Shown here in pieces: positions 4,566 to 48,587 of a stretch of 64,000 nt of DNA. The notes under the pieces are model-generated. The model was not told where the DNA came from, ran no database searches, and saw only the letters and a list, made by a program, of their open reading frames with translations. The first letter of the stretch is position 1. Every line of letters begins with the position of its first letter. Source of the stretch: Saprospirales bacterium. GTDB lineage: Bacteria > Bacteroidota > Bacteroidia > Chitinophagales > Saprospiraceae. The stretch lies in NCBI GenBank assembly GCA_007693915.1, contig RECS01000163.1, forward strand, positions 1 to 64,000, written 5' to 3'. Both the position numbers and the translations under genes were made by a program.

Positions 4566-5582
4566 ATGACACAGATAAAAGAGGTTTTAGAAGTATTGGA
4601 AAACATTGCACCAGCGGAATATCAGGAATCTTACGACAATTCTGGTTTATTGGTGGGGAATAAAAATATAGAGTTAAAGGGAGTTTTGGTGTGTCTCGAT
4701 ACTACTGAAGAAATTGTTGACGAAGCCGTTGAAAAGGACTGCAATCTGATCATTGCTCATCACCCATTAATTTTTAAAGGTTTAAAAAAAATCGATCCGA
4801 ATCATTGGGTGGGTCGAGTGGTCATAAAAGCCATCAAAAGCGATATTGCCATTTATGCTATCCATACCAATCTGGATAATGTCCTAAAAAATGGGGTAAA
4901 CGCCAAGATTGCTGAAAAACTGGGACTAACAAAAACTAAGGTGCTTATGCCTTCAAAAAGCACTTTGAGTTTTTCGATAAAAAGTCCAATCTTACTTAAA
5001 AAAGAAGTCCTGCAAGCCACAGATAAGATCAGCCCGCTCAATTACAGTTATTCAGAATCTACAAATGGCAATGATGGTAAAAAAATTGTTGAAGTTATTG
5101 GAGAAATAGCTCCACATCAGAAAAGTCAACTGAGTAATTCACTTAAAGGGCTGGGTGTCATTGCGTCATTTAATGAACTAACAGATCGACATCCTGATCT
5201 GGGCGCCGGTCTGATAGGCGAGCTAGAGATGCCTGTACCCGAAAAGGACTTCCTCAGTATACTAAAAAAGCAATTTAAAACAGCAGTGATCCGGCACACT
5301 GAACTCCTTGGAAAATCAGTATTAAAAGTAGCTATCTGCGGGGGATCGGGATCATTCCTATTGCCGTTTGCCATAGGAGCTGGAGCAGATGTCTTTGTAA
5401 CTGGAGATTTTAAATATCATGACTTTTTTGAGGCGGATAGAAAAATACTAGTTGCTGATATCGGCCATTTTGAAAGCGAACAATATACAATTGAATTAAT
5501 TATTGACATTATAAAGGATAAATTTAGTACCTTTGCGCTCCATTATACTCAAGTGGATACGAATCCTGTAAAATATTTTTAA
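4566..5582 (+). CDS. Nif3-like dinuclear metal center hexameric protein
   Basis: ESYDNSGLLVGN, IIAHHPLIFKGLKKI, YAIHTNLDNV, CGGSGSFL, TGDFKYHDF motifs. Confidence 0.92.
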   Translation: MTQIKEVLEVLENIAPAEYQESYDNSGLLVGNKNIELKGVLVCLDTTEEIVDEAVEKDCNLIIAHHPLIFKGLKKIDPNHWVGRVVIKAIKSDIAIYAIHTNLDNVLKNGVNAKIAEKLGLTKTKVLMPSKSTLSFSIKSPILLKKEVLQATDKISPLNYSYSESTNGNDGKKIVEVIGEIAPHQKSQLSNSLKGLGVIASFNELTDRHPDLGAGLIGELEMPVPEKDFLSILKKQFKTAVIRHTELLGKSVLKVAICGGSGSFLLPFAIGAGADVFVTGDFKYHDFFEADRKILVADIGHFESEQYTIELIIDIIKDKFSTFALHYTQVDTNPVKYF

Positions 5583-5583
5583 T

Positions 5584-6333
5584 ATGGCAGCTACAAAAAA
5601 GGAAATCAGCGTCGGAGACAGGTTAAAAAGCCTATATCATCTTCAGCTAATTGACAGCGAGATAGATCAATTACATGTGTTAAAAGGAGAGCTTCCCATT
5701 GAGGTTAGCGACCTGGAGGATGAGGTTGAAGGTTTGCAAACCCGAATCGGTAAATTCAATGGTGCAATTGAAGATTTTGAAGAGCAAATCTCAAAGCACA
5801 ATGGCAACATTGCTGATTCTAATGCACTAATAGAAAGGTATATGGTGCAATTGAAGGAAGTGAAAAACAACCGTGAATTTGATGCCCTGAATAAAGAGAT
5901 TGAATATCAGAAACTGGAAATCCAATTATCAGAAAAGAGAATCCGAGAGGCCAATCAGGAAATTGAGAAAAGAAAAGAGGTTCTCGATGAGGCTGAAACT
6001 AAGCTAAAGCAACGCAATAAAAATCTTGATGAGAAGAAAAAGGAACTTGAAGCGATCATCAAGAAAACTGAGAAAGAAGAAGCAAAGCTTTTAAAGGAAA
6101 CGGAAAAAGCAAGAAAACAAATTGATGAGCGTTTGCTCAAAGCTTATGACAAAATCAGGAAAAGCTATCGCAACGGACTTGCCGTTGTATCCATCAAAAG
6201 AGATGCTTGCGGTGGATGCTACAATATGGTCCCCCCCCAACTTCAGATTGAGGTTGGCTTGGCCAAAAGAGTAGTTGTCTGCGAAAATTGCGGCAGGATA
6301 CTTGTAGATGAGGATTTGCTAACATCTGAATAA
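5584..6333 (+). CDS. C4-type zinc ribbon protein with N-terminal coiled coil
   Basis: Long heptad region then CGGCYNMVPPQ...VVVCENCGRIL; starts directly after the nif3-like gene. Confidence 0.88.
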   Translation: MAATKKEISVGDRLKSLYHLQLIDSEIDQLHVLKGELPIEVSDLEDEVEGLQTRIGKFNGAIEDFEEQISKHNGNIADSNALIERYMVQLKEVKNNREFDALNKEIEYQKLEIQLSEKRIREANQEIEKRKEVLDEAETKLKQRNKNLDEKKKELEAIIKKTEKEEAKLLKETEKARKQIDERLLKAYDKIRKSYRNGLAVVSIKRDACGGCYNMVPPQLQIEVGLAKRVVVCENCGRILVDEDLLTSE

Positions 6334-14972: not shown

Positions 14973-16514
14973 ATGAAGTCAGTTTTTACACTACTATTTA
15001 TTCACTTTTTTATATTTCAGCCACTCTTTTCTCAAAGCGATTGGTGGGAAGATATTGATCTTCCTCGAGACACCATTTTTGTAACTAATTGTCAGGATAT
15101 CGAAATATTGAAGACAGCCGAGAGTATTTGGCAAATAGGTTCAAATTGGATATTTCCAAATGGCATAGAAGATCAGAATATAGTTGGATCTTATAAATTT
15201 GAAAAGGCATTTGACGCTGATAGTCAATGTATTGGAGGCGTAGTGAGTATAACTCTTATGAACTGGTTAAATTTTGAAACCTATGAATACGAGAGAGTAA
15301 TAACCTTCAACCCCCAACTCTCGGGACCTTGTGGTGAGTTTTATTCATTTGACAAAAGGGAATTGGAGGAGGGTCTTTTAATAAGTGATTTGGGTTTCAT
15401 TGCGCTTGATATTTCATTTTTTATTGATGGATCAGAAGATAGACTGTTTTTGCAAGCTAATATCGGTGACACCATTACTGTACCGATATTTCAATCTGAC
15501 GGACCTTCAGTTTGTTTTCTAAAAATTGAGGCTATTCCACCTTGTCCGAGGGAGTTTCAGTTAGAGCTAATAGATGATTTAAGTATCCATTTTGGAACTC
15601 ACCTATGTCAAAAAATCTTCATAGAGGATGTAGTATTAAATGCAGAATACCTTTGTTCAGCATTCGATTTGGGATTTTTAAACGCTGAAAATTTACTTGA
15701 AGATTACGTTTATTTCATTTTTGATCACAAAAATCCAAATAAAAAAGAAGACCTAATCATTACAATTAGGACTGAAGATGGTGAGGAGTTTAGCACTACT
15801 TTGGAAGTTTCTTTAACTACTGATGAATTATTTCACCAATTCTATTTGTATTCAGACAACCCCTATTTACTTGAAGGAGAAATAACTTACGTAGGAATAG
15901 GTGGAGATTTTGAAAAAATATTGACTCTTGAAGGTTCTCTGGGGTTAAGCGGAACTAAAATTTTAGAAGTACAAAATATCCATCCTAAGCTATCTGTAAA
16001 TGAAGTTTTATATTATCTCATTGAGGAAGATTTTTTCTTTTTCCTACTTTATCAGCCTGATCAAATCTTTAGTACTCTTGAGGGGGTTCCTTGGTTTGTT
16101 TTAAAAATTCAGGCCTTGAAGGAGGGTTATCTTTCTGAACTGATAGACATAAATCGCCTTCAAAATTCCAATGGTTCGACCCTACTTCAGTTGGACTCCA
16201 TTGACTGTGGCTCAAGAGTTGTCCTCAATTTTCCGTTCATCTTTTCTGAAGATTTGCTATTTTCCAACCTACTCGATATTTCTAAAAATAGCTATATTCA
16301 AACATTCCCCAATCCCACATCAGAAAAAATCTATTTTGATCACGAATTCGATAAAATTCAGGAGGTTAAGGTGTTTGACATGAGTGGCAGACTTGTCCTC
16401 TCAAAAGAAAATTTGAATAAATATCTAGATGTTTCACAGCTAGGTCCCGGATTCTATAAGCTGATATTAACTACTAATAAGGGGATAACTTCAGGTGGGT
16501 TTATTAAGCAATAA
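14973..16514 (+). CDS. Secreted protein of unknown function with T9SS type A sorting domain (paralog A)
   Basis: Signal peptide, WWEDIDLPRDTIFVTNCQD unit, C-terminal FPNPTSEKIYFDHEFDKIQEVKVFDMSGRLVLSKEN...FIKQ. Confidence 0.85.
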   Translation: MKSVFTLLFIHFFIFQPLFSQSDWWEDIDLPRDTIFVTNCQDIEILKTAESIWQIGSNWIFPNGIEDQNIVGSYKFEKAFDADSQCIGGVVSITLMNWLNFETYEYERVITFNPQLSGPCGEFYSFDKRELEEGLLISDLGFIALDISFFIDGSEDRLFLQANIGDTITVPIFQSDGPSVCFLKIEAIPPCPREFQLELIDDLSIHFGTHLCQKIFIEDVVLNAEYLCSAFDLGFLNAENLLEDYVYFIFDHKNPNKKEDLIITIRTEDGEEFSTTLEVSLTTDELFHQFYLYSDNPYLLEGEITYVGIGGDFEKILTLEGSLGLSGTKILEVQNIHPKLSVNEVLYYLIEEDFFFFLLYQPDQIFSTLEGVPWFVLKIQALKEGYLSELIDINRLQNSNGSTLLQLDSIDCGSRVVLNFPFIFSEDLLFSNLLDISKNSYIQTFPNPTSEKIYFDHEFDKIQEVKVFDMSGRLVLSKENLNKYLDVSQLGPGFYKLILTTNKGITSGGFIKQ

Positions 16515-16673
16515 AATTTTATCCGACTGATTTCCCTTCATTGCTATTACATGATGGTATAGGCTGGATTAATAAAAAGTCATTTTTGCAATCAAAATGC
16601 CTCCTGTTTTGTAGTAATTTATAGTTTTAAGTAAAAGAAATCTTTGTTTTTTTTTTAAAAAACTCAATCCCAA

Positions 16674-16720
16674 TGCCACGAATTTAGTTCTTTAGGGTTT
16701 AAAGTAATAGTTGACAAATT
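16674..16720 (+). repeat. Upstream element shared with the 14893-14935 region
   Basis: See 14893-14935; both lie at similar distance before the start codons of paralogs A and B. Confidence 0.6.
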
Positions 16721-16752
16721 AGAAATTTTTTAAAAAACAAAATCCATTACAC

Positions 16753-18792
16753 ATGAAAGCTATTTCTACACTACTTTTATTGCTATTTTTTTTCAATCAC
16801 TCGCTGCACTCACAGAGTAATTGGTGGGATGATATAGATCTGCCGAAGGATACCATTTTTATTTCCGGATGTCAGGATGTTGAAATCTTAATCAATGAAC
16901 ATCAGCATCCAATTCTTGTTCCTGAATACATTTTTCCATCCGGGATCGATGATCCTAATATTGTTGGAAATTATCAAATTAAAAAGACATACGATGCAGA
17001 CAGCATATGTGATGGAGGTGTGATATTTGTAAGCCTATTGAATTGGAATAACCTTGAGGTTTATGAATACTCCAGAATATTGAGTATTGATCCTGATTTA
17101 GCAGGTCCCTGCGGACAGTTTTATTCATTTGATAAAGAAAAAGTCGAGGATGGCTTGGTGATAAGTGATTTGGATTCCAACGCTAGTGACATTTCCTTCT
17201 TTAATTATAGTACAGGGGATACGCTTTTTCTTCCTATTCCTGCCTATACAAAAACCTACCCTGTGGCAATAACTCAAAACCCGGGTCCTTCACTTTGTTT
17301 TGTCACTGTAGAGGTGCAAGTTGAGGGATGGTATGAGGCCATTTTTCATACCGATACGGTATATATATCTGATTGTTCAGACATTGAACCCCTACTAGAA
17401 AATCCTCTAAAACAAGAAATAGTTAAAGAATGGATCTGCCCAAACTGTCATGAATTAACTGATATCGTTGGAGCCTACTATATAGAAAAGAGCTACGACA
17501 CTGACAGTAACTGCAATGGAGGGATAATGCATATTACCTTATTAAATTGGTCTAATTTAGCCATTTATGAATATGAAAGAGTTATAAAAATAAATCCCGA
17601 GCTCGAAGGTCCTTGTGGGGATCATTTTCTTTTTGAATATGAAGAAATTGAAGAGGGATTACAGTTTAGTGATTTAGGTGTACACAATAGTGATTTATCC
17701 TTTTTCCCAAATGGGGCTGACGATCCACTTGTTTTGAATCTTACGGAGTCAGGCATTTTCAACATACCTGTATTTCAAGCTCCGGGACCATCTGTTTGCT
17801 TCTTTAAATTTGAGGTAGATGTCAAACCGGCTTGTCTTGATACATTTTTATTGCAAGTCAATGAAGATTTTGTCATGACAGTTGGTGATGAGTTTTGTGG
17901 CAGACTTACATTAGGAGACCTTGGGCTGGAAGCCGAATACTATTGTGAAGGCTTTGAAGTTGGATTTTTAAACTCTGAAAACCTTCTAACTGATCAGATT
18001 GATTTAAATCTAAACTTAGATTATCATGAAAAAATGGAAGAACTTATGATCGTAATGAGAACCTGGGACAACCAGGAGTTTTCTATCAATTTTGATATAA
18101 AGGTGGTTATCGATAGTTCTCATCTCAATAGTGTTTTCATGTTTACTGATGACCCTTATCTGCTGGAGGGAGAAACAACTTACATCGGCATAGGGGCTAA
18201 TTTAAGAAACACACCAGCCATTCAAGGTGAGATTTTATTTCCGGGAGCGAAAATACTTAATGTGGAAGTGAGTCATCCTTATTTAAAGCCGGAAAATTAC
18301 GGTTTCAATAATGATTATGGTTTTTTTAGGTTTTTATTTGCTGATCCATGGAATGTACTTACATTTGAGGATGGGACACCCTGGTTCGTATTGCAGGTTC
18401 AGGCTAAGCAGGAGGGTTATCTCTCTGATCTGCTTGACCTCTCTGATCCAAATAATTTTAATAGACTATGGGTAGAAACAGATAAATGCTCACCATTAAG
18501 GTTTTATTTTACCTTTAACTTTTCACAAGAACTTCTGTTTAGTTCAACAGATGAAATTATTGCTCAAGATCCATTGAGGATATTCCCCAACCCCACATCA
18601 GAAAAAATCTATTTTGATCACGAATTCGATAAAATTCAGGAGGTTAAGGTGTTTGACATGAGTGGCAGACTTGTCCTCTCAAAAGAAAATTTGAATAAAT
18701 ATCTAGATGTTTCACAGCTAAATCCCGGATTCTATAAGCTGAAATTAACCACTAATAAGGGGAGAACTACCGGCGGATTTATTAAGCAATAA
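16753..18792 (+). CDS. Secreted protein of unknown function with duplicated N-terminal unit and T9SS type A sorting domain (paralog B)
   Basis: Two copies of the W[WY]...DT[IV][FY]IS.C.D.E unit; same C-terminal tail as paralog A. Confidence 0.85.
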   Translation: MKAISTLLLLLFFFNHSLHSQSNWWDDIDLPKDTIFISGCQDVEILINEHQHPILVPEYIFPSGIDDPNIVGNYQIKKTYDADSICDGGVIFVSLLNWNNLEVYEYSRILSIDPDLAGPCGQFYSFDKEKVEDGLVISDLDSNASDISFFNYSTGDTLFLPIPAYTKTYPVAITQNPGPSLCFVTVEVQVEGWYEAIFHTDTVYISDCSDIEPLLENPLKQEIVKEWICPNCHELTDIVGAYYIEKSYDTDSNCNGGIMHITLLNWSNLAIYEYERVIKINPELEGPCGDHFLFEYEEIEEGLQFSDLGVHNSDLSFFPNGADDPLVLNLTESGIFNIPVFQAPGPSVCFFKFEVDVKPACLDTFLLQVNEDFVMTVGDEFCGRLTLGDLGLEAEYYCEGFEVGFLNSENLLTDQIDLNLNLDYHEKMEELMIVMRTWDNQEFSINFDIKVVIDSSHLNSVFMFTDDPYLLEGETTYIGIGANLRNTPAIQGEILFPGAKILNVEVSHPYLKPENYGFNNDYGFFRFLFADPWNVLTFEDGTPWFVLQVQAKQEGYLSDLLDLSDPNNFNRLWVETDKCSPLRFYFTFNFSQELLFSSTDEIIAQDPLRIFPNPTSEKIYFDHEFDKIQEVKVFDMSGRLVLSKENLNKYLDVSQLNPGFYKLKLTTNKGRTTGGFIKQ

Positions 18793-40380: not shown

Positions 40381-42072
40381 ATGACTAAGAATCCAATTAT
40401 TGAGTGCGTCCCAAATTTCAGCGAGGGAAGAGATGAGGCTGTAATCAGGAAAATTACAAATGAGATAGAAAAAATAGACGGGGTTAAGCTACTGGATGTT
40501 GACCCGGGAAAAGCAACTAACCGAACTGTTGTCACTTTTGTAGGTCATCCTGATGCGGTTATTGAAGCCGCATTCGTAGCTATACAAAAGGCATCAGAAT
40601 TAATAGATATGTCAAAACACAAAGGTGAACATCCCCGCATGGGAGCTACTGATGTGTGTCCACTTATTCCAATCAGTGATATTACAATGGAGGAAACAGC
40701 TGAGTATGCCGCTAAGTTAGGTAAAAGGGTTGGAGATGAATTGGGAATACCAGTCTATATGTATGAAAATGCAGCTACAAAACCTGAAAGGCAAAATCTT
40801 GCAACTGTACGTTCCGGAGAATATGAGGGGCTTGCAGATAAGCTAGCAGATCCAAATTGGAAACCGGATTTTGGTCCTGCTCAGTTTAACCCTAAAGCCG
40901 GAGCTACTGCCATAGCTGCACGTGATTTTTTGATCGCCTACAATGTGAACCTGAATACTACAAGTGTTAGAAGGGCCAATTCCGTGGCTTTTGATATTAG
41001 AGAAAAAGGTAGAGTAAAAAGAGAGGGTGATCCGATAAGCGGAAAAATACTCAGAGATTCCAATGGAGAACCATTGCGCGAAGCGGGAAAGTGTAAAGGC
41101 GTAAAGGCCATTGGGTGGTACATAGAGGAGTACGGGATGGCTCAAATTTCAATGAATATTACCAATACCAAGCAGACACCTTTGCATATCGCTTTTGAGG
41201 CTTGCAGGGAGAGTGCAACTTCTAGAGGTCTAAGGGTTACAGGCTCTGAACTCGTCGGACTGGTGCCCAAACAAGTTATGCTGGATGCAGGAAAATTTTA
41301 TCTGACTCGACAAAATCGCTCCCACGGTATTCCTGAGGAGGAGATTATCCATATTGCTGTAAAATCAATGGGTCTGGATGAGCTATACCCCTTTGAGCCT
41401 GCAAAAAAAATCATTGAATATCAATTGGAAAGACCTAAATCCGGACCATTAGCTTCTAAAAACTTGTATGAATTTGCCGACGAAACGGCATCTGAATCCG
41501 TGGCTCCAGGTGGTGGATCCATAGCTGCCTATGTGGGTGCCTTAGGTGCTTCATTGGCAACAATGGTGGCCAATCTTTCCAGCCATAAAAGGGGTTGGGA
41601 TGACAAGTGGGAATTTTTCTCAGAGTGGGCAGTAAAAGGCGAAAAACTAAAAGAAGATCTTATCCATTTGGTAGATGAAGATACAGCAGCCTTTAATAAG
41701 ATCATATCTGCCATTCGACTGCCGAAAGGCTCGGAGGAAGAAAAGTCTTTGCGCAAGAAAGCCATTGAAGATGCCACCAAATATGCCATTGAAGTTCCAT
41801 TCAGAACCATGCAGTTGGCTGATCAGGTTTTTGAAGTAGCGGAGGCCATGATAGAAAACGGCAATCCAACTTCAGTCACTGATGCCGGAGTAGGTGCCCT
41901 CTGTGCAAGAGCTGCATCCTTGGCCGCCTACATGAATGTTTTAGTGAATTGCAAAGATCTGGAGGATGAAGATTATGTTAAAGATATTACTAAAAGGGCC
42001 ACTAAGTTGAAAACTCAAGCTGAAGAAAAAGAAAAATCTTTAAGTAATGTGGTGATTGGAAAGCTTACTTGA
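40381..42072 (+). CDS. ftcD: Bifunctional glutamate formimidoyltransferase / formimidoyltetrahydrofolate cyclodeaminase
   Basis: ECVPNFSEGRDEAVI, HKGEHPRMGATDVCPLIP in the N-half; SVAPGGGSIAAYVGALGASLATMVANLSS cyclodeaminase in the C-half. Confidence 0.94.
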   Translation: MTKNPIIECVPNFSEGRDEAVIRKITNEIEKIDGVKLLDVDPGKATNRTVVTFVGHPDAVIEAAFVAIQKASELIDMSKHKGEHPRMGATDVCPLIPISDITMEETAEYAAKLGKRVGDELGIPVYMYENAATKPERQNLATVRSGEYEGLADKLADPNWKPDFGPAQFNPKAGATAIAARDFLIAYNVNLNTTSVRRANSVAFDIREKGRVKREGDPISGKILRDSNGEPLREAGKCKGVKAIGWYIEEYGMAQISMNITNTKQTPLHIAFEACRESATSRGLRVTGSELVGLVPKQVMLDAGKFYLTRQNRSHGIPEEEIIHIAVKSMGLDELYPFEPAKKIIEYQLERPKSGPLASKNLYEFADETASESVAPGGGSIAAYVGALGASLATMVANLSSHKRGWDDKWEFFSEWAVKGEKLKEDLIHLVDEDTAAFNKIISAIRLPKGSEEEKSLRKKAIEDATKYAIEVPFRTMQLADQVFEVAEAMIENGNPTSVTDAGVGALCARAASLAAYMNVLVNCKDLEDEDYVKDITKRATKLKTQAEEKEKSLSNVVIGKLT

Positions 42073-42345: not shown

Positions 42346-42468
42346 TGGAGCTATTTAAATAAAAGTTAATTTAAGTTAATTTAAAGTTAAATATAGTCTT
42401 TTATTTTTTTTGTCAAACTATAAATTTTATTTGCGTTTAAATAATTAAATGATTTAAATTTATACAAT

Positions 42469-42840
42469 ATGAAATATTTAGTTTGTCTACTTTTTATTCT
42501 GTCCATAACTATGTCTGATGAGTTTCCATATTATGATATTATATCAAATAATCAAATCGAAAAGGTTTTTCCGGTAGTTGAATTCGACGAGGAAAATCTT
42601 TTGGCTCCTGGGAGATTTCATCTTGTGTCATTTGGTTGCGCTCCTGTAGATGAGCAAATTTGTTGTTGCTTCTGCGTTGGTGCGCCTTGCGGAATCATGT
42701 CCGCAGTTTGCGAAATTCCTGCAATACAGTTTGCTTGTTATTTTGGAGGACCATTTGAATGTACTGGTGATTTAGGGTGTGACAGCGTTGCTGAGGGTGC
42801 TGATTGCTATACATGCTGTAGTTTAGCATGTGGAGCATAA
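42469..42840 (+). CDS. Small Cys-rich secreted protein
   Basis: Hydrophobic N-terminus, then FGCAPVDEQICCCFCVGAPCGIMSAVCEIPAIQFACYFGGPFECTGDLGCDSVAEGADCYTCCSLACGA with 14 Cys. Confidence 0.75.
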   Translation: MKYLVCLLFILSITMSDEFPYYDIISNNQIEKVFPVVEFDEENLLAPGRFHLVSFGCAPVDEQICCCFCVGAPCGIMSAVCEIPAIQFACYFGGPFECTGDLGCDSVAEGADCYTCCSLACGA

Positions 42841-42866
42841 TCATATTTACTTTTTAATCCTATATT

Positions 42867-44363
42867 ATGAAAACCTTTTTAACAGCTTTTATTTTAGTAT
42901 CTAGTTTCTCATTTTTATATTTATATAATTATCAAACACAAAGTTTTGATGAGATAAATTATGACAATTCAGTACTTTTTGATGGGTATAATTCAACTAA
43001 TTTTAATGATTTTTTTGAGGAATTATATTATATTAGACTAGACTCAAACCCTTACAGTCCTTTGGATGCAGTAGATAAAATTCGATTTATTAATGACACA
43101 TTTTATGTAACTGATGTAAATTTTAGAGGGAAAGTATTTTTATATTCCGCTTTGGGAGAATTTATAAATAAAATAGGATTTAATCCCTCTTTGAATCTCT
43201 CTGGTAATACGTTTTTTGAAAAATGTATTGATTCAGGTCATCTAATTATAGGTTATCCTGATGAACAAAAATTACTTATATTTTCTAATGATGGTGATTT
43301 AGTTTCGCAAGATTCAGTTGGATTCTATTTTGACAATTTTGTTTATAATTCTATGCTAAAAAGGTATATTTTCCATACCCATATGCCTAATCCGGGTTTT
43401 TATGATAATCTAAATCATCAGCTGGTTTTAACAGACTCTAATTTTACCATTATTAGAAAGCATTTTCCAAAGCAATATAATATAACCAAAGAATTCAATG
43501 CTACGTACGCCATTCAAAAACCAATTGACAGCGGTGATTTTGTATATTTTGCTGATTTTTTTAATGGCAAAATTTATGAGTTAGATTTTAAAGGTAACGA
43601 AAAGTTGATCTTTAAAATCGAGGATGGAATTGAAAACAGGCAGGATTCTTTAATTATGATGGATGCAGAATTTCCATCCTATGAGGTAGTCATGCACAAT
43701 AAAAAGTTTTATCCATTCACTGAATATTATATTAATGAAGATTTTTTACTTCTATCTAATTACTTTGAGCAAAGAGTAAGAACACATGTGGTATTCAGTA
43801 GGGAAACTTTAAATGGCTATAGGTTCGCAAATAATATTCCCATAAATCTTGAAAGCGGGCATCAATTTAATTTTCATTTTGAAACTCCAACAAGTGTAAT
43901 TGGTAGTTATTTCGTTAGATTTCGATCTCCGAGAACTTGGAATCAAATAATTAGTTTTTTACCGGACTCTATAGACATTAGTCATTTGCCTGATTCAATA
44001 GCAAGTGGCCCAATAATGAAACTTTTCAAGTATAACAGGACTTTGATAGGAATAGATGATAGTGCTGATAGAAGACTTAATCCTGATTTTCAAAATAAGA
44101 GTCAAAATGTAAAAATAACCTGCTATCCAAACCCAACCTCAGGCATACTAACTGTTGAATCAACACCAAGTGTATCTTCTGATCATTTTATAGTCAAAAT
44201 TTTTAGTTTGGATGGCATAAAATTGGGAGTAATAAAAGGTGAAAAAACTATAGACTTTCCGTCTTTAGGTTTAAATTACGGGACATATATCCTTCAATTT
44301 AGTACATCAGAGGATGGAGAGACTATTAAAAATTTAGGTTCAGAACTGATTTTTTATCAATAA
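42867..44363 (+). CDS. 6-bladed beta-propeller-like secreted protein with T9SS type A sorting domain
   Basis: ELYYIRLDSNPYSPLDAVDKIRFINDTFYVTDVNFRGKVFLYSALGEFINKIG propeller pattern; C-terminal CYPNPTSGILTVEST...YGTYILQF. Confidence 0.78.
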   Translation: MKTFLTAFILVSSFSFLYLYNYQTQSFDEINYDNSVLFDGYNSTNFNDFFEELYYIRLDSNPYSPLDAVDKIRFINDTFYVTDVNFRGKVFLYSALGEFINKIGFNPSLNLSGNTFFEKCIDSGHLIIGYPDEQKLLIFSNDGDLVSQDSVGFYFDNFVYNSMLKRYIFHTHMPNPGFYDNLNHQLVLTDSNFTIIRKHFPKQYNITKEFNATYAIQKPIDSGDFVYFADFFNGKIYELDFKGNEKLIFKIEDGIENRQDSLIMMDAEFPSYEVVMHNKKFYPFTEYYINEDFLLLSNYFEQRVRTHVVFSRETLNGYRFANNIPINLESGHQFNFHFETPTSVIGSYFVRFRSPRTWNQIISFLPDSIDISHLPDSIASGPIMKLFKYNRTLIGIDDSADRRLNPDFQNKSQNVKITCYPNPTSGILTVESTPSVSSDHFIVKIFSLDGIKLGVIKGEKTIDFPSLGLNYGTYILQFSTSEDGETIKNLGSELIFYQ

Positions 44364-44457
44364 ATATTTCCATTAATCTATTAACCAGAAATAATTCTTT
44401 TACCCACTACTTTTAATAGGTTTCTTAAGTAATTTAGTAGTTTAGGATTCAAAAATC

Positions 44458-45183
44458 CTACCAGGCATCTTTTGGCTGCGTTCCGCTTTTGCCGGCTGAT
44501 TGCTGGATTAGGGCTTGAATAGAGACCATTTCTGCCTGTAGTTCGGTTCCCAGAAAATAAAAGAGGTGGATGTTATCCCTGAGCAATCTATTGAGTTGAT
44601 TAAAGCCGGATTCGTTATTCCCGGCTGCAAACAGTGCAAGAATATGATACCACTCTGCATCCTCTCTGTAAATATTTCCCCTATCATTCAGCATGGGTCT
44701 GATGAGTTGGAGTGCTTCATCTGCCTTTTCTTGAAGTAAAAGTTGCTGCACTCTTTCTAGGTCTCTTACCACATGGGCATATTGCCTTCTGATATTTTCA
44801 GAGGCTTCAGTACCGGATTCAAAAGTTAGGGGAATGGATCTATTGACCCAGGTACGTATATTGAATTCTCTTACATGAGTTCCTGTCCTTGGAGTCGTTT
44901 GGCTTTGGTTACTTTCTGCTGGAGTTCTTGTCCTGATTTCAGCTTGTCCACCGGATTGAGGTTGAGTTGTCTGTTGTCTTTGATTGTTCACCGCTGCATT
45001 TTCTTCTGTAAGCGATTCGTTCTGATATTCCGTTGTTTCATCAGGAGGAATTAACTCACCATCAATTTTCTCAGATATTTCCTCACCCGACTGCTTGTTG
45101 ATAAAATACAAATTGGCTATTCCAACCAATATCAGGACAGTGGTCAGTCCAATCAGCAAATACATTAATTGCTTATTTCCCAT
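44458..45183 (-). CDS. Hypothetical single-TM protein with C-terminal helical/TPR-like region
   Basis: N-terminal TM LMYLLIGLTTVLILVGIANLYF, low-complexity linker, helical C-term; the 3' third is duplicated at 42098-42345. Confidence 0.75.
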   Translation of the reverse strand: MGNKQLMYLLIGLTTVLILVGIANLYFINKQSGEEISEKIDGELIPPDETTEYQNESLTEENAAVNNQRQQTTQPQSGGQAEIRTRTPAESNQSQTTPRTGTHVREFNIRTWVNRSIPLTFESGTEASENIRRQYAHVVRDLERVQQLLLQEKADEALQLIRPMLNDRGNIYREDAEWYHILALFAAGNNESGFNQLNRLLRDNIHLFYFLGTELQAEMVSIQALIQQSAGKSGTQPKDAW

Positions 45184-45214: not shown

Positions 45215-48200
45215 TTAATGACCTATGATCATTTTTCTACTACTTTCCCAATTAACGGTGCTCAGTCTGTAATAGTGCGTACCACTCCATGTTTTGTCCA
45301 TTTGTAAGAGGTAAAAGTTCATTCCTTCCTGTCCGTCGAGTTCCGTAGATTTCAACAACCTTCCTGAACTGTCAAAAATCTCCAGCACAACCCGTTGGGC
45401 ATATGGTAGATGGAAAGGAATCTCAGTTTCAGTCGAAAAGGGATTGGGTCTGTTTTGATAAAGAGCATAATTGTCTTTTTCTATATCATCTTTGCTCTTG
45501 TCCCTTACCACAGGTCTGAATGTAGTTCCGTTTTTTCCATAGAATTCAGTAGAGAAACGCGTTTTGCTTTCCGGTAGCTGAATAGTACTATTTTGACTAT
45601 TATTACTTTCCTGATTGGAAAATACCAAAGAAAACAATGGAGTGTTTTGTTGGAATAAAATTTCTTCTGAAGTATACCAGATTAGCCTTAATATATTCAT
45701 TTCGGAATCCCAATGCCAGTTATCTGAAGTAAAGTCAGGTAAGCCGGATTTTAGGAGAAAGTCGTCGGCATCCCAATTTTCTGGAATTTCCAGTTCAATT
45801 TGAAATCCATTGAGCAACAGTTCATTGCCTATAGATAGCGTCCATTCCACCCCCATTGAGCTTGTGGTTGCAGTTTGGCTATACAATTCCAGTGCCGGTC
45901 TTATCCACCTTTGTCCTGAGGGGAAGTAATCTCCGTTTACGTCCCCTATTCTAATTGCAGACCAATTTTCATCATTGAAATCCTGGGATAAATTGTTGTA
46001 TTCGGCTTCTTCAGGCCAGCCTTCAGTCAGTGCATTTTGGGGATTACTAAAAACATGACCTTCAGGAATAAATCGCCAGAAATTACCGTGGGGAAAGTCA
46101 TTCCGTAACCCTAGAATGTATTGTTGCAAAAGAATGAGGTCAATAGTGTTGATTTTTCCATCCATGTTGACATCTGCTGCAATCAATCCATATGGAGCAT
46201 CGAGTAGCTCCTGATTTACGAGATGTTTTTGAATTTTTATCAGATCAAGGGTACTTAGTCCCTGAATATCTGACTCTTCTCTCTGCAATGATTTCAAATT
46301 GTCGGTTCCTGCCTCTAGTCCAAAAGAATAAGTGCCGTTACCATTACTTTCAAACTCCAATTCCTCCCCATCAGATAGGACAATGATTGCTACCTGTTCC
46401 AGAGGTTCGTTAAAAATTGACCCCAGAAAGCCGGATATTTCATAAATATTCTCAATAAGACAAAATTCAGTGTTATCCTGACTGCCAAAATCATCACCAA
46501 AAGCAAGTGTATCACCAGTAGCGGGATAAGTCAATAAATAAAACCCTTCATTCCCCTCCTGCCAGGTATTGCCTGCAAGTCCATCCCCAAAATCATCATA
46601 AATGATAAATTCAAAACAATTTCCATCGACACATAGAGGAATTTCAATAGTTTGGTTCCCAAGACCACCATAGTCTCCTCCATCAAAAAGAATTTGACCG
46701 TTTTCATCAAGCAGTTCCCAACTGATATCCTCCGGCCAAGGATCAAATTTAATGGTAAGCAAAAGCTCATGTTCAGCTGTTGCTACTTCAAATTCATATT
46801 CAAAGTCATCATTTAAAGGATTGGAGTCGTCCTCACCATTGGGTTGGTCAGTATAAACATAGAAGTCGATTGGACCAATGGGGAAGGTTGTTAGAGGTAA
46901 GGTAACAGTCTCCGATTGTCCTGAAGGTAAATTTCCTGTCCAGGAATAAGTACTTTCAGCACCTCCATTGAATGAATATACGATATCCACAGAATTAAGA
47001 GAATTGGTGCCAAAATTTTGAAGTACAACTACAGCTTCAATGTCTGTATCACAGGAAACAATGGCAGGATGGATGACACCGCTGATTCCGGCATCGTGTT
47101 CTTCAGGGCATTCTGTCAAACATCCGGCTCCATATACATGATCTCTCATGTGATCTCCGGGTTGTGGTCCAAATCCTTCGTTGAGGTTAATCCCTACACC
47201 TCCAATCAAATGACAGTAACTCATAACTGTTCCGCCCTGGGCCGGGATAGGCCCATCGCAGCCCTCTGAGTAGCCGGCTTGATGCCCACAACCATCAATT
47301 GCATCGTTTCCATTTCCATTCCACCAACAACTATGGGTATGTCGAGAACCCAGATTGTGACCCATTTCATGAGCGATTACCATTACAGTCCAGCTGTAAG
47401 TAGGTACATTTTGATAGGAAGAACTAATGCTGCTGAAAGCGATATTCCAATATTTGTCGTTACAAATATTTTGTATTAAATAAGCGACACCTCCACTTGC
47501 AGCATATGCTACCAAATGCGCAATGTCTCCGTTATAATTACCATCGAGTTCATTCCTGAACTGTGATAAATAATCACCTGAGGAAGGACCATCATAAGGA
47601 CTTGGCGTGTCCCAAATAAGGATTTCGCTAACCCTTGAATTGATATTTTCATTTGCGTAAAGGATAAAGACCTGACTAAAGGCACCCAAAACATATTCAG
47701 TAGCTGCACTGACAGACCCTTTGTCATCATGTATATCTTTTTCTACTTCTACGTAAACATTTACGCAATTTAGGCTGTCTGCGGATCTTGATCGCACAGT
47801 TTCCTCAGAATCAATAGCATGAAATTCAGCATTGAAATGGCATTTAAAATCATTGAGAACTTTTAAGTCCTTGTCCTCATAAATGATATGGTTATTTTTC
47901 GAATCATTTTCGAGAGCACCCAATGTATAATTTTTTCCATCGAAAGAAATAAATCCCATGATTTCATTTTCCAGCACACTTAAGCTGACCATGGAATTGG
48001 GGTGCCCCTTGACAACGCCCCAGAAAAATCTGGCGTTGAGGTTCCGTATTGGCCTATCCGGATTTGACGAACTAAACACCCTAACCTCTCTGGAGAATAA
48101 GTTCACCTCTTTTAGCTGTAAAGTTACCAATTGGTGGGAGTTTATCGGAATTCTGACTTGAATGATATTTCCATTGGATTCTAGCATTTTCTTGTGTATA

Positions 48201-48415
48201 TCCATTCTTAGGGAAAGGAGACTTCCTTGCATCAAAACTTCTGTTAACTGATTTGGAGATGCTGTGATTTCTGCTTGCAAATTAAATGGACTGAACATCA
48301 ACTCCCTATTGAATTGAGATTCATCCGGAGCAAAATCTATTATCCTTAAAAAATTCTGACCACTAAGATTCAGTGTAACAAGTGTAAAAATAAAAATAGA
48401 GAATATGTATTTCAT
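45215..48415 (-). CDS. Reprolysin-like zinc metallopeptidase with dockerin-like, cohesin-like and T9SS C-terminal segments
   Basis: VIAHEMGHNLGSRHTHSC metzincin motif; STLDLIKIQKHLVN...AADVNMDGKINTIDLILLQQYILG and GDVNGD dockerin-like; YQNRPNPFSTETEIPFHLP...sorting tail. Confidence 0.88.
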   Translation of the reverse strand: MKYIFSIFIFTLVTLNLSGQNFLRIIDFAPDESQFNRELMFSPFNLQAEITASPNQLTEVLMQGSLLSLRMDIHKKMLESNGNIIQVRIPINSHQLVTLQLKEVNLFSREVRVFSSSNPDRPIRNLNARFFWGVVKGHPNSMVSLSVLENEIMGFISFDGKNYTLGALENDSKNNHIIYEDKDLKVLNDFKCHFNAEFHAIDSEETVRSRSADSLNCVNVYVEVEKDIHDDKGSVSAATEYVLGAFSQVFILYANENINSRVSEILIWDTPSPYDGPSSGDYLSQFRNELDGNYNGDIAHLVAYAASGGVAYLIQNICNDKYWNIAFSSISSSYQNVPTYSWTVMVIAHEMGHNLGSRHTHSCWWNGNGNDAIDGCGHQAGYSEGCDGPIPAQGGTVMSYCHLIGGVGINLNEGFGPQPGDHMRDHVYGAGCLTECPEEHDAGISGVIHPAIVSCDTDIEAVVVLQNFGTNSLNSVDIVYSFNGGAESTYSWTGNLPSGQSETVTLPLTTFPIGPIDFYVYTDQPNGEDDSNPLNDDFEYEFEVATAEHELLLTIKFDPWPEDISWELLDENGQILFDGGDYGGLGNQTIEIPLCVDGNCFEFIIYDDFGDGLAGNTWQEGNEGFYLLTYPATGDTLAFGDDFGSQDNTEFCLIENIYEISGFLGSIFNEPLEQVAIIVLSDGEELEFESNGNGTYSFGLEAGTDNLKSLQREESDIQGLSTLDLIKIQKHLVNQELLDAPYGLIAADVNMDGKINTIDLILLQQYILGLRNDFPHGNFWRFIPEGHVFSNPQNALTEGWPEEAEYNNLSQDFNDENWSAIRIGDVNGDYFPSGQRWIRPALELYSQTATTSSMGVEWTLSIGNELLLNGFQIELEIPENWDADDFLLKSGLPDFTSDNWHWDSEMNILRLIWYTSEEILFQQNTPLFSLVFSNQESNNSQNSTIQLPESKTRFSTEFYGKNGTTFRPVVRDKSKDDIEKDNYALYQNRPNPFSTETEIPFHLPYAQRVVLEIFDSSGRLLKSTELDGQEGMNFYLLQMDKTWSGTHYYRLSTVNWESSRKMIIGH

Positions 48416-48587
48416 TACATTCAACTTATTTGTTAGGTAAGTACTTTCAGCATTTTCTTTATACTAAGGTACAAAAATAAAGCCATTTTTTATCGAAATA
48501 GTTGTAAATGAGTTTTTAAAAAAAAGATGAATCTTTAGGTTTTTAGTTTTTACTTGGCTAAATTTGCTTCCTTCAAATGGGAAGTCA

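Follow-up and report, generated by a model that had tools for sequence, protein, structure and literature searches.

Within a 64,000-nucleotide stretch of contig RECS01000163.1 from a Saprospirales bacterium (the window), the gene for a 123-aa Cys-rich peptide is followed, after an intergenic gap of 26 nt, by the gene for a 498-aa propeller-like protein. Both lie on the + strand. The initial annotation had described this pair, and the open reading frames confirm it. What it missed was a truncated second copy of the right neighbour's 3' end, and hence the insertion. The features are as follows.

40381..42072, + strand: left neighbour, formiminotransferase-cyclodeaminase (FTCD; PF07837, PF02971, PF04961); in G117 and G852 it lies directly next to the 3' end of the 241-aa gene
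42098..~42352, - strand: copy A, stranded 3' end (~82 codons, in frame) of the right-hand neighbour, 25 bp from FTCD, found by alignments to the neighbour gene
42353..44457, no strand assigned: inserted two-gene block, 29.5% GC; the syntenic site is empty in both G117 and G852
42469..42840, + strand: secreted-type peptide, 123 aa, 15 Cys (ORF list; homologue in G849 at 6e-9)
42613..42837, + strand: Cys-rich core of the peptide, residues 49-123, CCCxCVGxAPC ... FACxFGGxFEC (sequence inspection, alignment)
42867..44363, + strand: propeller protein, 498 aa, hydrophobic signal-like N-terminus, no lipobox (ORF list, Pfam)
42972..43595, + strand: DUF5128 6-bladed propeller match, residues 36-243 (PF17170, 1.6e-9)
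44124..44321, + strand: T9SS type A C-terminal sorting domain, residues 420-485 (PF18962, TIGR04183)
44458..45183, - strand: right neighbour, 241 aa, intact, family unassigned; orthologues in G117, G007, G852, G849 and G848
44458-44712, - strand: copy B, the right neighbour's last ~255 nt, defined by alignment to copy A

The block holds only these two genes; no transporter, protease or maturation enzyme lies within it. The 241-aa gene has no Pfam family match. At window positions 45215-48424 there is a gene for a secreted M12 (reprolysin-type) metalloprotease of 1069 aa, with a dockerin-like repeat and a weak T9SS tail.

The whole block had been called AT-rich and opposite in strand to its flank. 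Its GC content is indeed low compared with the host's 38-39%, and the propeller gene, at 29.1%, has the lowest value of the 45 genes in the window (the other 44 stand at 39.4 +/- 2.4%). The genes on either side of the block have a normal composition. The peptide gene, however, has 39.2% GC, and the bias is that of the propeller and the non-coding DNA. As for strand, the description holds for the right neighbour but not for FTCD, which is on the strand of the pair.

Evidence that the block was inserted

In the sister genomes G117 and G852 the site is empty: the stop codon of FTCD and that of the 241-aa gene are separated by 2 bp and 8 bp, respectively. These empty sites, together with the two flanking copies of the 3' end, identify the block as an insertion. 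Copy A has 89% amino acid identity to residues 160-241 of the neighbour gene. Copies A and B are 86% identical (88% over 206 nt; nucleotide identity 0.83 in the comparison between species), and their differences fall 6/4/31 by codon position, so that third positions dominate; dN is 0.06-0.07 and dS 0.58-1.03 (dN/dS ~0.06-0.12). An identity of 0.83 is within the between-species range of the genus (0.83-0.91 among G007, G848 and G849). The third-position differences, the low dN/dS and the species-range identity all point to copies that split while functional, either in separate lineages or as an old duplicate. We conclude that one of the two probably originates in another lineage.

Could the copies be a transposon-type target-site duplication? 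They differ from each other, and with so low a dN/dS, and we rejected this origin. Perhaps, then, the 241-aa gene was doubled long ago, and the block was later inserted between the duplicates, removing the 5' part of the second? This history is rather unlikely. It would fit the observation that A and B are mutually closest relatives and were both under purifying selection, but the other genomes of the genus that were examined show no second copy of the gene (one each in G117 and G007, one seen in G852), and two events are needed where one suffices.

The element e14, integrated site-specifically in icd, carries a replacement for the 3' end of its target gene. An element of this type, since reduced to its cargo, was considered here, and its classic footprint, a diverged substitute for the 3' end together with an insert placed at the stop codon, is what A and B show. 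However, its integrase would have to be missing, for there is none in the 2.1-kb block; the relatives within the genus occupy unrelated sites, with no comparable repeats; and queries by protein and by alignment returned no relatives among phages, plasmids or viral contigs. Such an element seems improbable. The same searches of phage, plasmid and viral collections led us to reject a phage or plasmid origin of the block.

The least probable account, to which we give very little credence, is an assembly chimera that joined contigs of two strains, with the misjoin at 42352. The genome is a multi-contig draft and the divergence of A and B is strain-like. Yet the exact stretches shared by A and B are short (~32 nt, by eye in the alignment), the junction at 42352 offers no homology on which to misjoin, and a homologous pair is intact in G849.

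Import from another lineage is the simplest reading, and a likely one. The donor would likely be a related, unsampled species, whose DNA carried its own version of the neighbour gene's 3' end. One side of the import would have joined by homology inside the 241-aa gene; on the other side, an illegitimate join would have fallen within the 3' end of the recipient. The recipient's old 3' end would thereby have been left stranded next to FTCD, where it is now copy A. It is copy A that occupies the position on the FTCD side in the window, and the assignment of the native copy is made from position only; a donor species for the block and the 3' end was not found.

The two proteins of the block

The peptide consists of a signal-like N-terminus, an acidic linker and a Cys-rich core that begins at about residue 49; 14 of its 15 Cys fall at residues 57-121. 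NVEALA peptides (PF14055) occur beside 6-bladed propeller genes in Bacteroidota, and the initial proposal was that the pair may serve in export/maturation or signalling, as a variant of that arrangement. The order of genes is the same. However, the PF14055 profile gave no match at E <= 10 with the window peptide, its G849 homologue or eight other peptides, and inspection found no NVEALA-type motif at the end of the window peptide's leader. We rejected the peptide as a PF14055 member on both counts. A bacteroidetocin or PCAT-exported type was likewise rejected, since no GG precedes the core and the block has no C39-PCAT transporter.

The second gene had been described as encoding a propeller-like protein with a T9SS tail, and the profiles bear this out. 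The PF17170 (DUF5128) score was 37.8 bits against a cut-off of 22.9, which places the protein in that family, and the tail scored 29.1 bits with PF18962 Por_Secre_tail (cut-off 27) and 26.7 bits with TIGR04183 (cut-off 23). By these matches the protein combines membership of DUF5128 with an extra T9SS tail, and its C-terminal domain makes it a predicted T9SS type A substrate. A profile of the genus propeller family matched NHL-type 6-bladed propellers in the PDB (e.g., 7qrw, 8e-7). Structure prediction without an alignment gave a pLDDT of 36.6, too low for the model to be used.

Relatives within the genus

Eight genomes of the genus were searched. G849 carries a homologous pair, in which a peptide of 132 aa with 14 Cys (E 6e-9) lies 52 nt before a T9SS-tailed propeller with 33% identity; the site is unrelated to, and not syntenic with, the window locus. 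Twelve Cys columns and 35/72 core residues are common to the two peptides, compared with only 8/48 residues before the core. G852 has an orphan T9SS-tailed propeller, 41% identical, that lacks an upstream peptide. In G007 there is a propeller remnant with internal stops, which was the sole return of a scan of the genome contigs. Like the window block, the relatives are low in GC: 35.6% for the G849 pair in a host of 46.2%, and 36.9% for the G852 propeller in a host of 44.7%.

In G007 (L020:3497-4396 and 4822-5601) the remnant directly follows an epimerase-like gene, making it another insertion at a gene end, and it adjoins ORFs that by eye resemble an Rpn-type transposase/nuclease.

All three full-length propellers of the genus have the T9SS tail. 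Among the ~85 order propellers from outside the genus, none does (15 of these were also checked with Pfam). Across this set the tail is special to the genus. Protein searches of the order and the phylum yielded hardly any close relatives beyond the genus. Two weak peptide hits within the taxonomic family, in G038 and G087, were set aside; one crosses stops and the other lies inside a 3649-aa frame.

Peptide-propeller linkage across the order

An order-wide PF17170 search (35/329 genomes), with the loci of two further genomes, gave ~85 distinct propellers. As an upstream peptide we counted any ATG ORF of 55-190 aa within 700 bp whose N-terminus was hydrophobic and whose product had 4 or more Cys. 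A Cys-rich, secreted-type small ORF of this kind preceded 32 of the 82 DUF5128 genes that had enough upstream sequence. The antisense strand gave 0/82, five dinucleotide shuffles gave 0-2/82, and other large genes at the same loci gave 1/60. Hence the adjacency of peptide and propeller, for which the initial annotation had proposed a neighbourhood check, recurs both in G849 and across the order. Seventy-six of 90 DUF5128 genes were AT-richer than their own locus, and many order propellers had a lipobox-like N-terminus. Propellers without a peptide were common, with eight inside ~12 kb in G743.

One array lies on contig 27 of G312, where each of five peptide-propeller pairs places a different core before a different propeller. 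The leaders, which end in EALAQG, are 79-97% identical (dN 0.02-0.16), whereas the Cys-rich cores are only 29-51% identical (dN 0.6-1.2). Leaders ending in ...V(S/M)EALAQG are NVEALA-like by eye; EALAQG was seen in the G312 peptides only. A glycosyltransferase-2 gene recurs inside the G312 array (L085:8489-9616 and 16213-17340), and for this reason the repeated unit may exceed two genes.

Several other neighbours were observed. In G743, a truncated C39-peptidase ABC transporter (PCAT; PF03412, 1.6e-35) lies between DUF5128 genes at L044:3315-4505, a possible link between some propeller arrays and leader-cleaving peptide export. In G362, an O-antigen-ligase/TPR protein (Wzy_C; L098:10-1710) immediately precedes a Cys-rich peptide and propeller, and in B. 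thetaiotaomicron BT0662, of the O-antigen ligase family, is found near the 6-bladed propeller BT0664 (PMC10434189). These two neighbourhoods raise the possibility of peptide glycosylation. Small CxxC/thioredoxin-like ORFs, and also membrane-anchored ORFs of 190-210 aa, recur beside propellers at L043, L048, L104, L108 and L081:2943-3512; neither kind had a Pfam family in those scanned. In G100 (L082) the whole pair is tandemly duplicated, the peptides being identical and the propellers near-identical.

What might the pair do?

Text searches of the literature on NVEALA and DUF5128 gave no paper, and we found no assigned function for small Cys peptides beside propeller genes. The pair likely consists of a disulfide-rich peptide that is secreted and a partner protein at the cell surface. 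Our overall reading, for which we would claim a little less than an even chance, is that the two genes of the block form a module that moves horizontally and encodes a disulfide-rich, Sec-exported peptide and a cognate surface propeller. The propeller would sit at the cell surface, lipoprotein-like in many relatives and a predicted T9SS substrate in the genus. More tentatively, and with well under even confidence, the peptide would act outside the cell, probably in antagonism, and the propeller at the surface would bind it and protect or load the producer.

Three kinds of observation favor competition or recognition over a housekeeping role: the cargo-like composition and patchy, non-syntenic occurrence of the genes; the conserved leaders with hypervariable cores among comparable paralogues; and the frequency of orphan propellers, of which the cluster in G743 is an example. 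The peptide may be antagonistic, with the propeller as its immunity or binding partner, a proposal we offer tentatively and with well under even confidence. Against arms-race divergence in the window and G849 pair, the core is better conserved than the leader.

Perhaps the propeller is instead a carrier, whose export by the T9SS brings the peptide to the surface as a non-toxic structural, adhesive or signalling ligand? Display or signalling is the main rival to antagonism. The peptide has a Sec-type N-terminus without an outer-membrane export signal and its partner propeller has such a signal; the peptide core is conserved between the window and G849; and in both its lipoprotein-like and its T9SS forms the propeller looks surface- or envelope-directed. 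All of this would suit a display pair. However, the hypervariable cores behind conserved leaders in G312 resemble competition genes more, as do the many orphan propellers and the patchy occurrence. We regard display as somewhat unlikely.

Returning to competition or recognition, a broader proposal can be made, though only as a speculative one: peptide-propeller pairs may constitute an undescribed, widespread polymorphic system of Bacteroidota, in which hypervariable, disulfide-rich peptides would be exported behind conserved secretion leaders, each with a matching surface 6-bladed propeller to recognize or neutralize it; in this genus the propeller would have given up anchoring as a lipoprotein for export by the T9SS. 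Within the genus there are a two-gene form at its most compact, a homologous pair in a sister species, a propeller without its peptide, a degraded remnant and sites that lack the insert. Together with the order-wide set, the locus makes the function of the peptide and its partnership with the propeller testable through two genes.

Comparison with known systems

The closest arrangement is that of NVEALA. In both, a small secreted Cys peptide lies immediately upstream of a DUF5128/6-bladed propeller gene, and some relatives in the order have the EALAQG leader end. The window peptide, however, is longer, has 15 Cys and lacks both the motif and a PF14055 match, and its propeller has a T9SS tail rather than a lipobox. 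The propeller resembles DUF5128 proteins in scoring above the family cut-off and in its NHL-like PDB relatives; it is unlike them in the C-terminal T9SS sorting domain, which the ~85 order propellers lack.

Bacteroidetocins and the PCAT-exported RiPPs of Bacteroidales are small peptides with a leader and a core (PMC6671954, PMC10352776). The window peptide, too, is small, comes from Bacteroidota and has a leader and a core, but its signal is of the Sec type, and it has neither a GG leader nor a C39-PCAT transporter.

Homology-facilitated illegitimate recombination leaves orphaned 3' ends at effector/immunity modules in Vibrio and at Rhs loci, and orphan immunity arrays (PMC5361080) offer a parallel for propellers without peptides. 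The anchor in the window differs in being a family-unassigned, genus-conserved gene and not a secretion locus, and the likeness is one of genomic parallels alone. In those modules as in the window, two linked cargo genes stand behind a conserved gene, with the old 3' end orphaned downstream.
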